Shown here one piece after another: positions 16,589-20,460 of a stretch of DNA of 64,000 bases (position 1 is the stretch's first letter; each line of letters starts with the position of its first letter). Origin of the DNA: Desulfuromonadales bacterium (GTDB lineage Bacteria > Desulfobacterota > Desulfuromonadia > Geobacterales > Pseudopelobacteraceae); the NCBI GenBank assembly GCA_013349325.1, contig DUZX01000010.1:1-64000 (forward strand). The letters are read 5' to 3'. Under the pieces are notes generated by a model. It worked only from the letters and a program-made list of their open reading frames with translations. It ran no database searches and was not told the DNA's origin. The translations under genes were made by a program, and so were the position numbers.

Positions 16589-17077
16589 ATGAACTTTAAC
16601 CATTTTGATGAGAGCGGCCACGCCATTATGGTCGATGTCAGCACAAAGCAGCCAACTATGCGGACCGCAATTGCGGCGGCCGAGGTGCGCATGTCGCCGC
16701 ATTTGGTGCAGTCTATCCAGTCGGGTGAAATTGCGAAAGGGGATGTGCTGGGCGTTGCCCGTCTGGCCGGCATCATGGCTGCCAAGCGGACTTCGGATCT
16801 GATTCCGCTTTCCCATCCGCTGGCTATCCACCATGTTACGGTTGATTTCGATCAGGATCCGATTGCCGGACTTATTACAGCTACCTGTACGGTGCGGGCC
16901 TTGGAGCGTACCGGAGTCGAGATGGAAGCGATGACCGGCGCCGGTCTGGCCGCTTTGACGATTTATGACATGTGCAAGGGGAGTGACAAATCGATCACCA
17001 TTGGCGAAATAAAGCTGCTGTTTAAAGAGGGGGGCAAGAGTGGCGTATACCGGCGGAGTGCCGACAAAGATGCGTGA
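16589..17077 (+). CDS. moaC: cyclic pyranopterin monophosphate synthase
   Basis: MoaC acts after MoaA to make cPMP in molybdenum cofactor synthesis. The 162-residue length and the motifs MVDVS, SHPL, VRALERTGVEMEAMTGA and the lysine-rich tail IGEIKLLFKEGGKSG are those of the family, including the catalytic Lys/Asp region TIYDMCKG. GAGGT precedes the ATG. A second cofactor gene of the MogA/MoaB type lies 2.9 kb downstream on the same strand. Confidence 0.96.
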   Translation: MNFNHFDESGHAIMVDVSTKQPTMRTAIAAAEVRMSPHLVQSIQSGEIAKGDVLGVARLAGIMAAKRTSDLIPLSHPLAIHHVTVDFDQDPIAGLITATCTVRALERTGVEMEAMTGAGLAALTIYDMCKGSDKSITIGEIKLLFKEGGKSGVYRRSADKDA

Positions 17078-17103
17078 CGTACGTCTCCGGGAATAAAAAA
17101 CGC

Positions 17104-17132
17104 TTGACTACGGATTTTATTTTCACTATTAC
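17104..17132 (+). promoter_or_regulatory. promoter of the riboswitch-cytochrome transcript
   Basis: TTGACT (17104-17109) and TATTAC (17127-17132) are 17 bases apart. Transcription would start near 17139, about 25 bases before the first riboswitch aptamer, giving a 5' leader of roughly 540 bases. Confidence 0.52.
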
Positions 17133-17163
17133 TGTCTTCATTAAACGAGCTGTAAGCTCATCG

Positions 17164-17273
17164 ACACGACAATACTAAACCATCCGCGAGGATGGGGCGG
17201 AAAGCCCACAGGGTCTCATTGAGACAGCCGGGTTGCCGAATGATCGTACATATTCCGGCAACCCGGCTTTTTT
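17164..17273 (+). promoter_or_regulatory. GEMM-Ib (3',3'-cGAMP-type) riboswitch, copy 1 with terminator
   Basis: The aptamer core ACACGACAATACTAAACC, then CATCC/GGATG hairpin, GGGGCGGAAAGCC, GTCTC/GAGAC hairpin and AGCCGGGTTGCCG matches the Geobacter GEMM-Ib class as I remember it, which prefers cyclic GMP-AMP over c-di-GMP. The last segment GCCGGGTTGCCG (17227-17238) also pairs perfectly with CGGCAACCCGGC (17256-17267), followed by TTTTTTA: a 12-bp terminator. The aptamer and terminator share this strand, so ligand binding should prevent termination (an on-switch). Confidence 0.87.
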
Positions 17274-17308
17274 ATTTCGGGTTCCGGATGGCGACGTCAG
17301 CAGGCGAT

Positions 17309-17422
17309 ACACGATACTACTAAACCATTCGTGAGAATGGGGCGGAAAGCCCACAGGGTCTCTCTGAGACAGCCGGGTTGCCGAATGATCGTACACATTC
17401 CGGTGACCCGGCTTTAATATTT
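17309..17422 (+). promoter_or_regulatory. GEMM-Ib riboswitch, copy 2 with weakened terminator
   Basis: The second copy begins exactly 145 bases after the first. The aptamer keeps CTAAACC, the GGGGCGGAAAGCC junction and the GAGACAGCCGGGTTGCCG strand; its first hairpin is CATTC/GAATG, a compensated change (CATCC/GGATG in copy 1). The terminator arms GCCGGGTTGCCG (17372-17383) and CGGTGACCCGGC (17401-17412) pair with two G-U pairs and are followed only by TTTAATATTT, so this terminator should be leakier than the other two. Confidence 0.86.
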
Positions 17423-17453
17423 CGGGCACCGGAGTGTGACGTCAGCAGGCGAT

Positions 17454-17564
17454 ATACGACAATACTAAACCATCCGTGAGGATGGGGCGGAAAGCCCATT
17501 GGGTCTCATCGAGACAGCCGGGATGCCGAATTATCGAACAGATATTCCGGCACCCGGCTTTTTT
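17454..17564 (+). promoter_or_regulatory. GEMM-Ib riboswitch, copy 3 with terminator
   Basis: The third copy again starts 145 bases after the second. It has TACGACAATACTAAACC, CATCC/GGATG, GGGGCGGAAAGCC and GTCTC/GAGAC, with small changes (CCATT for CCACA in the junction, GGGATGCCG). GCCGGGATGCCG (17517-17528) pairs with CGGCACCCGGC (17548-17558) with one bulged A, followed by TTTTTT. It is the last gate before the cytochrome gene 120 bases downstream. Confidence 0.86.
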
Positions 17565-17682
17565 GTGGGTCCGGTTTGGGGAGGTGATGCGACATCAACA
17601 AAATAAATGAATAATCATCGACTGTTGGCGAAGCGACTCTATAGAAGTACACAAACAACCACGATACGAATGAGGTAAAAAA

Positions 17683-18957
17683 ATGAATAAGTCAATTATG
17701 AGTAGAACGATTCTGTATATCTGCGCAGCGACGATATCACTTGCCGGATGTGGTGGCGGTGGCTCGGCAACGCCGGCCGGTTCGACGGCCGGTGTCAGCA
17801 AAGGTACGGTCACCAAAAGCGTTGCAGGTACATCCGGCCAACAGCTCACGGTTAATAATGTCGCATTCAGCACCACTGGCGCGAGCGTAACACTGAATGG
17901 AGATCCGGCCGCACCCGGCGACCTGAAGCAGGGCATGCAGGTCGAGATTACCGGTTACATTGAGGGAAGTGCCGGCTCGGCCAGCAGCGTTGTGTGTGAG
18001 GGTGAGCTGGAAGGCATGCTCGAAACGATTGATCGCACTGCCGGCAGCTTTGTCCTGCTTGGTCAAACCGTCGTAGTAAACGATCTGACCATTTTTGAAG
18101 GAGTAACCGGACTCGCTGATCTCGCCGTCGGAAGAGTAGTTGAGGTTCATGGTCTTGCCGATGTGGCAGGTGCCGTGGCCGCCAGTCGTATTGAAGTTAA
18201 GTCCGCGACCCGCAAGGTGTACCTGTCCGGGCCTGTCAGCAATCTGGACAGCGTGCTGAAGACCTTCACCATCCGGACCGTAACGGTTGACTACTCGGAC
18301 TCAGCAACCATACTGCCTGAGCAGCAGTTAGCCAACGGGATGATCGTCAAAGTGAAGGGTACCTCTGTCAGCGGTGTCGTGAAAGCGACTAAAATCAGGG
18401 TGCGCCATACACCACGGCAGCATGGTTATGCAGAACTTGAGGGGTTGGTAAGCGGCTACGATGCTGTAGCCGGCACCTTCTCGCTGAACAATCAGCCGGT
18501 TCAGCTGACTTCAACGACCATCTTTAAAGGCGGGGCTGTGGGCGATATCACGGAAGGAACCAAAATCGAGGTCAAAGGTGAAGTGACCAACGGCATACTG
18601 GTGGCAAATAAGGTCGAAATTGATCATGACAGACAGCACGGAATCCCTGCTCCGACACCGACACCCGTGCCGACACCAACACCCGTGCCAACACCAACAC
18701 CCGTGCCAACACCAACACCCGTGCCAACACCAACACCAACACCGGTTCCGACGCCCGCCCCACTACCTGGCAAAGTGGTCTATGACACTTCATGTGCGGG
18801 ATGCCACACGTTGGGAACGTATGACGCGGCGGGATTTGCACCGAACCTTTCGGGCAAGGGTTCAAAGATTGCCGGCAAGATAGGTGCAGGACACAACAAC
18901 GTGAGCCTGACTTCGCAACAGATCATTGATGTCGCGGCGTTTGTAAACGCAAATTAG
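17683..18957 (+). CDS. lipoprotein with DUF5666-like repeats and C-terminal monoheme cytochrome c domain
   Basis: A 424-residue lipoprotein. The signal ends in the lipobox LAGC (Cys ~23) followed by a glycine stretch. Residues ~35-310 hold about four related beta-rich repeats of ~65 residues with the pattern (G-V-E-V-K-G ... V-A-x-K-I-E-V), as in DUF5666. A Thr-Pro-rich hinge (~322-360) follows, then a small cytochrome domain with one heme site, CAGCH. No methionine ligand is visible after the heme; the conserved GHNN histidine may be the second axial ligand. GAGGT precedes the ATG. The architecture suggests an outer-surface electron carrier on a flexible arm. Expression is gated by the three riboswitches upstream. 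Confidence 0.82.
18652..18752 (+). repeat. coding tandem repeat, 18-bp period (Thr-Pro hinge)
   Basis: About five copies of an 18-bp unit (CCAACACCAACACCCGTG-like) encode repeated TPTPVP. The copies are nearly identical, so copy number can change by slippage without breaking the frame and would alter hinge length. Confidence 0.85.
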
Positions 18958-18998
18958 CAGCGCTCTGTAACTCAATTTATATCTATCATGGAGGAAGT

Positions 18999-19124
18999 AT
19001 GGACCAGGCAAATATGATTCAAACGTTCGTAGGAGTTTCAGGAGTAGTCCTTCTTTCAGTAACCGGTTTATTTGTTGCGTACTGGAAATTGTATGGCAAA
19101 AAGCGCAGCACGTTAGCGAAATAG
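18999..19124 (+). CDS. 41-aa single-span membrane protein
   Basis: ATG at 18999 follows a strong GGAGGA ribosome site. The product reads MDQANMIQTFVGVSGVVLLS, then VTGLFVAYWK and a basic tail LYGKKRSTLAK: one membrane helix with an N-out, positive C-in layout. It lies 41 bases after the riboswitch-controlled cytochrome gene and 103 bases before the diheme lipoprotein, so it is probably part of the same transcript. I do not recognise a family; a small assembly or anchoring partner for the cytochromes is a guess. Confidence 0.62.
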   Translation: MDQANMIQTFVGVSGVVLLSVTGLFVAYWKLYGKKRSTLAK

Positions 19125-19163
19125 GACCGTACCTTTGCAATAAGAGATGACATTATCAGACAA

Positions 19164-19194
19164 GACCTCCGAAGTTTTAAAAACCTCGGAGGTC
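19164..19194 (+). promoter_or_regulatory. stem-loop in the leader of the diheme cytochrome gene
   Basis: GACCTCCGA (19164-19172) pairs with TCGGAGGTC (19186-19194); the loop is A/T-rich (AGTTTTAAAAACC) and allows further pairing. No T run follows. It begins 40 bases after the 41-aa gene and ends 33 bases before the next start codon, so it may be an mRNA-processing or translation-control element. Confidence 0.5.
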
Positions 19195-19227
19195 TCCGTA
19201 GATGAAGGCCAGAAAGAGGTTGGCGAT

Positions 19228-19782
19228 ATGAAAAGATTTATGAGTAGCACGATACTGTTAGCGGGCATTGCACTTCTGGCATTGTCCGGCTGTGGCAGTG
19301 TGCCCGATGACGCAACTGCCGGTATCAGCGTCGGGACGGCCACAAAAGTAGCGAACGGAGCGCCGGTCCCCCAGCTTTCACTTCATGGCAGCGCGCTCTA
19401 TGCGACCAATTGCGCCCGCTGCCATGGCCCCTTGACCTCCTCCTCCAAAAAGGAACGTACTGCCAGACTTATTCAGAGCGCCATCACCGGCAACGTAGGA
19501 GGCATGGGGTATATCATGCTTACCGGACCTGAAATCCAGGCCATTGCAGACAGTCTCGGCGGTCCGGCGTCATCGTCACCCGGTACACAGCCGGGCAAGG
19601 TACTCTATGACGTCACCTGTTCTGAGTGCCATCGTTTGGGAACCTACGACAGTGCCGGATTAGCGGCAAACCTCTCCGGTAAAACAGGCATAATTGCGGT
19701 TAAAATAAGCACCGGTCACAAGGGAATCAGTCTGAACGCACAACAAATTACGGATCTCACCAATTTTATGGATGATTATTAG
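19228..19782 (+). CDS. diheme c-type cytochrome lipoprotein
   Basis: From ATG 19228 (AGAGG upstream) the protein has 184 residues; an upstream in-frame ATG at 19147 would add 27 residues without a signal-like character. The lipobox is LSGC. The first cytochrome domain has CARCH and a GGMGY methionine, a normal His/Met site. The second has CSECH and, like the domain of the preceding lipoprotein, GHKGISL in place of a methionine, suggesting bis-histidine ligation. The second domain is clearly homologous to the C-terminal domain of the gene at 17683 (both read CHxLGTYDxAG...NLSGK), so the pair arose by duplication. Confidence 0.86.
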   Translation: MKRFMSSTILLAGIALLALSGCGSVPDDATAGISVGTATKVANGAPVPQLSLHGSALYATNCARCHGPLTSSSKKERTARLIQSAITGNVGGMGYIMLTGPEIQAIADSLGGPASSSPGTQPGKVLYDVTCSECHRLGTYDSAGLAANLSGKTGIIAVKISTGHKGISLNAQQITDLTNFMDDY

Positions 19783-19962
19783 ATGTACATTTTTTTGCAG
19801 AAACAGAAAAATGCACACAGCTTCCCTCTTTAGCTTTGCACCCCGCCGATCTGCTCGTGCCCCTTTTTCAATGCTGAACAGATAACCAGTTGAAAACCTG
19901 TAGCGACTTCCCTATAGTACCGCTCGCTGCTGACAAGAGACGATGCACAGGGGGAACAGCTG

Positions 19963-20460
19963 ATGAGAGCCGCAATTTTAACGTTGAGTGACAAGGGTTC
20001 ACGAGGTGAGCGGATTGACGAGAGCGGACCGGCTCTGGCTGCATGGCTGGCGGAGCGGGGTGTGCAGACGGTTACGTCACGCGTCATAGCTGATGAATAT
20101 GATCAGATTGTGGACGTGCTCACGGAGTGGTCAGATAGCGATACAGCCGATCTGATCCTGACGACCGGCGGCACCGGCGTCTCACCACGCGACATAACGC
20201 CCGAGGCGACAATGCAGGTAGCAGTGCGACTGATTCCCGGCCTCGGAGAGCTGATGCGGCTCAGAAGCCTCGAAAAAACAACGACGGCCTCCTTATCGCG
20301 GGCTGTTGCCGGTATCCGCAACAAATCACTGATCATCAATCTCCCCGGCAGTCCCCGGGGCGCCCTGGAAAATCTGGAAGCGGTCTGGCCAACAATCGGC
20401 CATGCGGTTGAAAAGATTCGCGGAGGAGAGGAAGATTGTGGGGGACGGTTTTCAAAATAA
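19963..20460 (+). CDS. MogA/MoaB-family molybdopterin adenylyltransferase
   Basis: A 165-residue protein of the Mog/MoaB fold, which adenylylates molybdopterin before molybdate insertion. TLSDKGSRGERIDESGP, TTGGTGVSPRDITPEA and the NLPGSPRGALENLE motif are intact. GGGGGA precedes the ATG. The 3' end overlaps the start region of the rRNA methyltransferase gene. Functionally linked to moaC at 16589; the cytochrome locus lies between them. Confidence 0.92.
   Translation: MRAAILTLSDKGSRGERIDESGPALAAWLAERGVQTVTSRVIADEYDQIVDVLTEWSDSDTADLILTTGGTGVSPRDITPEATMQVAVRLIPGLGELMRLRSLEKTTTASLSRAVAGIRNKSLIINLPGSPRGALENLEAVWPTIGHAVEKIRGGEEDCGGRFSK

Follow-up and report, generated by a model that had tools for sequence, protein, structure and literature searches.

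The window, as the whole 64,000-nt stretch of DNA analyzed here is called, carries on its plus strand three tandem riboswitch modules followed by a gene at 17683..18957, whose predicted product is a PgcA-like lipoprotein with four DUF5666 stretches, a PTx repeat and one CXXCH motif. The lipoprotein signal, the PTx repeat and the c-type haem motif by which PgcA-like cytochromes are recognized were all found in it: a lipobox was identified by eye, the repeat comprises eight P[TA]P motifs and the haem motif is accompanied by a PF00034 match. The haem end also matches PDB entry 8qk0, 'Lipoprotein cytochrome c', with an E value of 1.1e-16. In G. sulfurreducens a cGAMP riboswitch controls PgcA, a lipocytochrome with a PTx repeat, and one described homolog has a single haem motif (PMC5732950). 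The passages dealing with PgcA contain no mention of a DUF5666 part. A second, small cytochrome c is encoded on the same strand at 19147..19782 (PF13442/PF00034) and is possibly read from the same transcript. In the region 16589-20460 the riboswitch-cytochrome block is flanked by moaC (16589-17077) and by a gene for a molybdopterin-binding domain (19963-20460).

The modules were located with the Rfam covariance model for c-di-GMP-I riboswitches, RF01051, whose gathering score is 35 bits. Three matches, each spanning the full length of the model, were obtained on the plus strand at 17164..17240 (46.5 bits), 17309..17385 (44.0 bits) and 17454..17530 (44.8 bits). The covariance-model scan proposed in an earlier sequence-only reading of this DNA thus returned the three tandem modules which that reading had placed here, and the exact 145-bp period that it had reported was recovered as well: the copies belong to one family of direct repeats, which advances in two steps of 145 nt. 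A pattern of three aptamer cores matched the window a single time, and 100 shuffles yielded no match. Over the whole unit, copy 2 shows 88 % and copy 3 shows 67 % likeness to copy 1. Copies 1 and 2 differ at 17 of 145 positions; the differences are in part loop changes, and five of them fall in the spacer. The claim that the copies differ by compensated base pairs held for one pair and not for several, the pair at module positions 21/28 (C-G in copy 1, U-A in copy 2) being the only aptamer pair changed on both sides between these two copies. In the list of open reading frames of at least 90 aa, none starts on the plus strand between 17077 and 17683. The array therefore consists of aptamers of one class, each with its own expression platform and with no gene between them, as in the tandem riboswitches termed pseudo-cooperative.

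Each aptamer is followed by a terminator hairpin with a T tract on the plus strand. Terminator 1 (17226..17273; energy -27.5, T score 4.61) overlaps aptamer 1 by 15 nt, terminator 2 (17371..17420; energy -25.4, T score 3.02) has a weakened stem and an interrupted T tract, and terminator 3 (17516..17564) was predicted with an energy of -26.2 and a T score of 4.07. In every module nucleotides 63-77 have a dual role as the 3' strand of aptamer P3 and as part of the 5' arm of the terminator, so that 15 nt are common to both structures, the arrangement of a GEMM-Ib transcriptional ON-switch. The minimum-energy fold of the whole module contained the long terminator hairpin in all three cases, and the isolated aptamer folded with P2 and P3. 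These folds bear out the earlier statement that each copy has its own terminator sharing a strand with the aptamer. No plus-strand terminator was returned by a consensus scan requiring an unbroken stem and a loop of 3-8 nt; bulges are present in the hairpins of the array when folded.

The middle terminator had been described as the weaker one, and on balance this was confirmed. Two one-sided changes in its 3' arm convert a G-C and a U-A pair to G-U, one change at the loop end acts in the opposite direction (G-U to G-C), and the T tract reads TTTAATAT against TTTTTTAT, with two T's lost. Copy 2 may hardly terminate. It lies at the weak end of the sampled array modules but is not alone there, as 6 of 49 have at most five T's among the eight nucleotides after the stem. 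Greater leakiness of upstream gates was rejected as a general rule: the T tracts of upstream and last modules of the sampled arrays (26 vs 23 modules) did not differ, with means of 6.65 and 6.61 T's in eight (p = 1.0).

A possible promoter (TTGACT, 17 nt, TATTAC) was found by eye on the plus strand at 17104..17132, ending 31 nt before aptamer 1; a promoter scan of the window, which applies its own criteria, yielded none. In genome G032, which encodes a relative of the regulated gene, TTGACT-17-TAAACT was seen by eye upstream of the first module. Directly past terminator 3 and some 95 nt upstream of the gene start, a strong Shine-Dalgarno-like sequence, GGAGGTGAT, leads into a small hairpin (17580..17596, plus strand; a 9-nt match to the anti-SD complement, with the hairpin taken from folding). 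The window contains one such 9-mer, and 0.50 would be expected. A sequence of this kind also follows the last terminator at loci L120, L122, L128, L131, L135, L139 and L140.

Among leaders of loci chosen as arrays or top scorers, many of them homologous, a Shine-Dalgarno match of at least 7 nt was present in 13 of 14 that precede cytochrome genes versus 2 of 22 others. In four other genomes (57 leaders) it was detected in one of the 55 leaders with a called gene, and the idea of an orphan Shine-Dalgarno sequence as a general feature of these riboswitches was rejected. A separate pattern for such leaders matched in 39 of 141 genomes, the reversed control giving 4 matches; of the 52 sites that were read, 30 had an aptamer upstream, and 11 of these 30 precede a gene with a haem motif. 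According to the folds, the hairpin after the Shine-Dalgarno-like sequence is missing in several loci. A leader peptide was not supported: within 16 nt, 4 of 14 leaders lack a start codon altogether, and in 4 more, that of the window included, the sole start codon within this distance overlaps the Shine-Dalgarno-like sequence.

The three GEMM-Ib-type modules in front of the PgcA-like gene would act as three consecutive cGAMP-dependent transcription gates. cGAMP would bind each aptamer as it emerges and hold the 3' strand of P3, thereby blocking the terminator of that module. RNA polymerase would have to clear all three gates, and read-through would be the product of the three. The predicted main effect is a reduced leak at low cGAMP, together with a modestly higher threshold and steepness and a lower maximum. 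Mutually exclusive aptamer and terminator folds have been reported for the cGAMP ON-switch of G. metallireducens pilM, and in modelling of that switch part of the transcripts still terminated at high ligand (PMC9262584).

The expected response was calculated in a dose model with assumed parameters (per-gate leak 0.1, maximum 0.8). For one, two and three equal and independent gates the effective Hill coefficient was 1.0, 1.19 and 1.26, respectively. The modelled off state fell from 0.10 with one gate to 0.001 with three, and the fold range rose from 8 to 511; it was 121 with a weak middle gate and 64 with a dead one. The sequence-only reading had anticipated a steep, AND-like response or a wider dynamic range. 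In the model the range widened and the leak fell, with a small gain in steepness. Since the off-state leak falls as a product and the Hill coefficient reaches at most 1.26, suppression of leak is the preferred view of what the array does, and steepness a minor effect. The strong gates are predicted to be copies 1 and 3, and with copy 2 weakened the array should, in terms of this model, be closer to two strong gates.

Several described systems resemble the array. In pseudo-cooperative tandem riboswitches, too, all members recognize an identical ligand and every one has an expression platform to itself. For c-di-GMP-I, 347 doublets and 12 triplets have been counted, and the passages on these systems give quadruplets for glycine only (PMC9481103). 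The part of that survey concerning the 12 triplets does not state whether any is of the cGAMP type. Tandems of c-di-GMP riboswitches are enriched in Thermodesulfobacteriota and Deinococcota (PMC12452182). A tested case is a Bacillus triplet, in which three c-di-GMP-I modules are also ON-switches whose terminators share an aptamer strand, but the ligand is c-di-GMP, the controlled genes are cspABCDE and the host is unrelated (PMC4759541). When c-di-GMP was low, read-through of that system in an E. coli lacZ reporter fell from 74.0 % with one module to 25.1 % with two and 8.4 % with three (PMC4759541), a drop such as the product of serial gates predicts.

Among Geobacter systems, the tandem GEMM-Ib switches of G. 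sulfurreducens omcAHG (GSU2885) form a series of the cGAMP type before a cytochrome operon, as here, with two modules versus three (PMC6456294). Tandem GEMM-Ib pairs of this species have been reported, one of them shown by RNA-seq, and once gacA was deleted, RNA was no longer detectable by the second module of such a pair (PMC6456294). The GEMM-Ib switch of pgcA, GSUR3008, is again a cGAMP switch before a PTx-repeat cytochrome lipoprotein; the passages devoted to it mention no tandem, and PgcA of G. sulfurreducens has three haems versus the one motif found here (PMC6456294, PMC5732950). The array is real and ordinary in mechanism, serial switches being already known, and uncommon in number.

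The origin of the third copy was approached through the spacers (plus strand, 17276..17308 and 17421..17453). The spacer preceding copy 2 and the one preceding copy 3 agree at 28 of 33 positions. To the eye, both differ from the 33 nt in front of copy 1, and the 33 nt after copy 3 resemble neither spacer (8/33 and 9/33). Reconstruction of the copy history from module identity was dropped because modules from other genomes are as alike; the sister status of copies 1 and 2 rests on the spacer, module identity alone being insufficient. If the distal module of an older doublet was duplicated together with its spacer, this spacer pattern and the exact 145-nt period would follow; judged from the sequence, the period is best read as the trace of such an event, and the terminator of copy 2 would have been weakened afterwards. 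A functional phase set by the 145-nt pitch was rejected, since other arrays (grouping limit 350 nt) have steps of 129-308 nt. Among the matches listed in two surveys, a 145-nt step was found in only one other array.

The three closest relatives of the regulated gene were found in genomes G016, G037 and G032, with 58, 55 and 48 % identity, respectively. Those in G016 and G032 each have two modules upstream, spaced by 274 nt and 143 nt. The G037 relative (L084, G037:C148) showed no riboswitch at the gathering score within 1.5 kb upstream, so riboswitch control of the relatives of this gene is not universal. At loci of G016 and G083 (L082/L140 and L086/L141) a repeat-like insert of about 130-150 nt was seen by eye between two modules before cytochrome genes.

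A different view of these data is that tandem duplication has recently left a third copy behind as a by-product, which confers no benefit and is decaying, and that the locus works as a doublet. The module and spacer that copies 1 and 2 have in common, the two stem pairs weakened to G-U and the two T's lost in copy 2, the presence of two modules in two near relatives and the model, in which a dead middle gate leaves the output of two gates, all fit this view. It is opposed by the aptamer core retained in copy 2 with one pair changed on both sides, by the one strengthened pair in its terminator and by the fact that other genera of the order again have arrays with three or four modules. We consider a decaying copy possible but rather unlikely.

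Serial gating by cGAMP depends on the ligand class of the aptamers. In all three copies position 20, which we take to follow Vc2 numbering, is A, where c-di-GMP aptamers have G, as seen in the sequence and in alignments. The host genome has ten c-di-GMP-I matches in all, and nine carry A20 when read from the sequence. Together with the RF01051 matches, A20 supports the GEMM-Ib class assigned earlier. An A20G change in a GEMM-Ib aptamer shifts selectivity from cGAMP to c-di-GMP, and in Hypr cGAMP synthases the Hypr position is occupied by Ser (PMC6456294). Of 20 GGDEF matches in the host, 19 were readable at this position and demonstrated 16 Asp, 1 Thr and 2 Ser. One of the proteins with Ser (L171, G000:C49:6562-7032; GHLVGS/GGDEY) has a GacA-like motif, and the other (L176, G000:C4:128606-128899; GYIKAS/GGDDF) resembles GSU1937, a protein with a GGDDF motif reported as a second cGAMP cyclase (PMC8835794). 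On the basis of these motifs the two are likely the cGAMP synthases of the host, and from one nucleotide, A20, and the presence of Hypr-type GGDEF proteins we infer that cGAMP is the ligand of the array.

That the aptamers sense c-di-GMP instead appears improbable. The Rfam family is indeed named for c-di-GMP, and under permissive filters c-di-GMP-I-GGC scored best (44.7-50.1 bits), without reaching its cut-off of 59; A20 in all copies and the host GGDEF proteins with Ser at the Hypr position speak against it. A doublet with G at position 20, for which c-di-GMP is likely, was noted elsewhere (L130, G016:C1); the same genome carries a pair of cGAMP-type modules as well.

Cooperative ligand binding by the aptamers, joined into a composite domain like that of tandem glycine riboswitches, would suit the regular spacing, but each aptamer has its own terminator and the variable steps of the other arrays argue against contacts between copies, which makes it very improbable. 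It is equally hard to credit that the short terminated RNAs are the point of the array, acting in trans or soaking up ligand: three terminators would release RNAs of three sizes, yet no result of the analysis points to such a role, and the mutual exclusion of terminator and aptamer is the known gating design (PMC9262584). Taken as a whole, the explanation by three serial cGAMP gates that cut the leak, derived by duplication and with copy 2 weakened, is considered probable.

To place the array among its kind, model matches were grouped when they lay on one strand no more than 350 nt apart. In 19 genomes, chosen for good assembly or match number and not at random, doublets made up at least 32 of at least 255 leaders, and at least two larger arrays were present, the triplet of the window and one set of four. 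Nine of these genomes, host included, gave 142 model matches, 138 of them above the cut-off, which formed 109 singles, 15 doublets and one triplet, that of the window itself; ten from other families of the order gave 112 singles, 17 doublets and the set of four (150 of 192 matches). These counts are lower bounds, as 150 of the 236-472 first-look candidates per genome were scored with the model.

A doublet pattern matched in 43 of 141 genomes of the order, although by eye many of the matches were not aptamers. A triple pattern matched in 3 of the 141, one of which (G031) has only two recognizable aptamers, and it missed the wider-spaced arrays of G139 and G131. Applied to a collection of 84,980 species, from which the genome studied here was perhaps left out, it returned seven stretches. 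Three aptamers were present in two of them (L050 and L044, the latter being G096) and two aptamers in three others, and the remaining two had none. Other triplets are found in G096, in G139 (steps of 149 and 227 nt) and in a Peptococcaceae genome (L050). In G139 (L126, G139:C90, 491-1205) three very similar cGAMP-type modules are followed by a fourth, different c-di-GMP-I aptamer, with C at position 20 by eye. The quadruple of G131 (L230, G131:C1:3033428-3034088, minus strand) has four aptamers above the cut-off at steps of 163, 173 and 249 nt. By eye, all four have A20 and a terminator after each, and the quadruple precedes PEP-CTERM-like and polysaccharide-export-like genes. The earlier opinion that triple arrays are rare agrees with their low number in the 19 genomes; as such, triplets had already been described and one of them tested (PMC9481103, PMC4759541). 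Titles and abstracts among the literature matches listed named no cGAMP-type triplet or quadruple.

A broader proposal is offered tentatively, as we hold it to be less likely than the serial-gate explanation itself. Within the order, one to four aptamer-terminator-spacer units might be gained or lost before genes for surface components, as an evolvable dial for the leak, and single gates might then be retuned chiefly through the T tract and the free 3' arm of the terminator, the 5' arm being for the most part tied to the aptamer. This tie is not absolute: in the strand shared by aptamer and terminator copy 2 has no change relative to copy 1, and copy 3 differs from both at one base. The window would, on this proposal, present a fresh third unit with the middle gate loosened.

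The array opens no new class of regulation and joins a known kind of serial riboswitch. Together with its relatives it constitutes a natural series of one, two, three and four copies of the same switch, with which the predicted trade between leak and maximum output is measurable using native parts. For the organism, the array suggests that cGAMP tightly controls a cytochrome similar to one that serves in iron oxide respiration.
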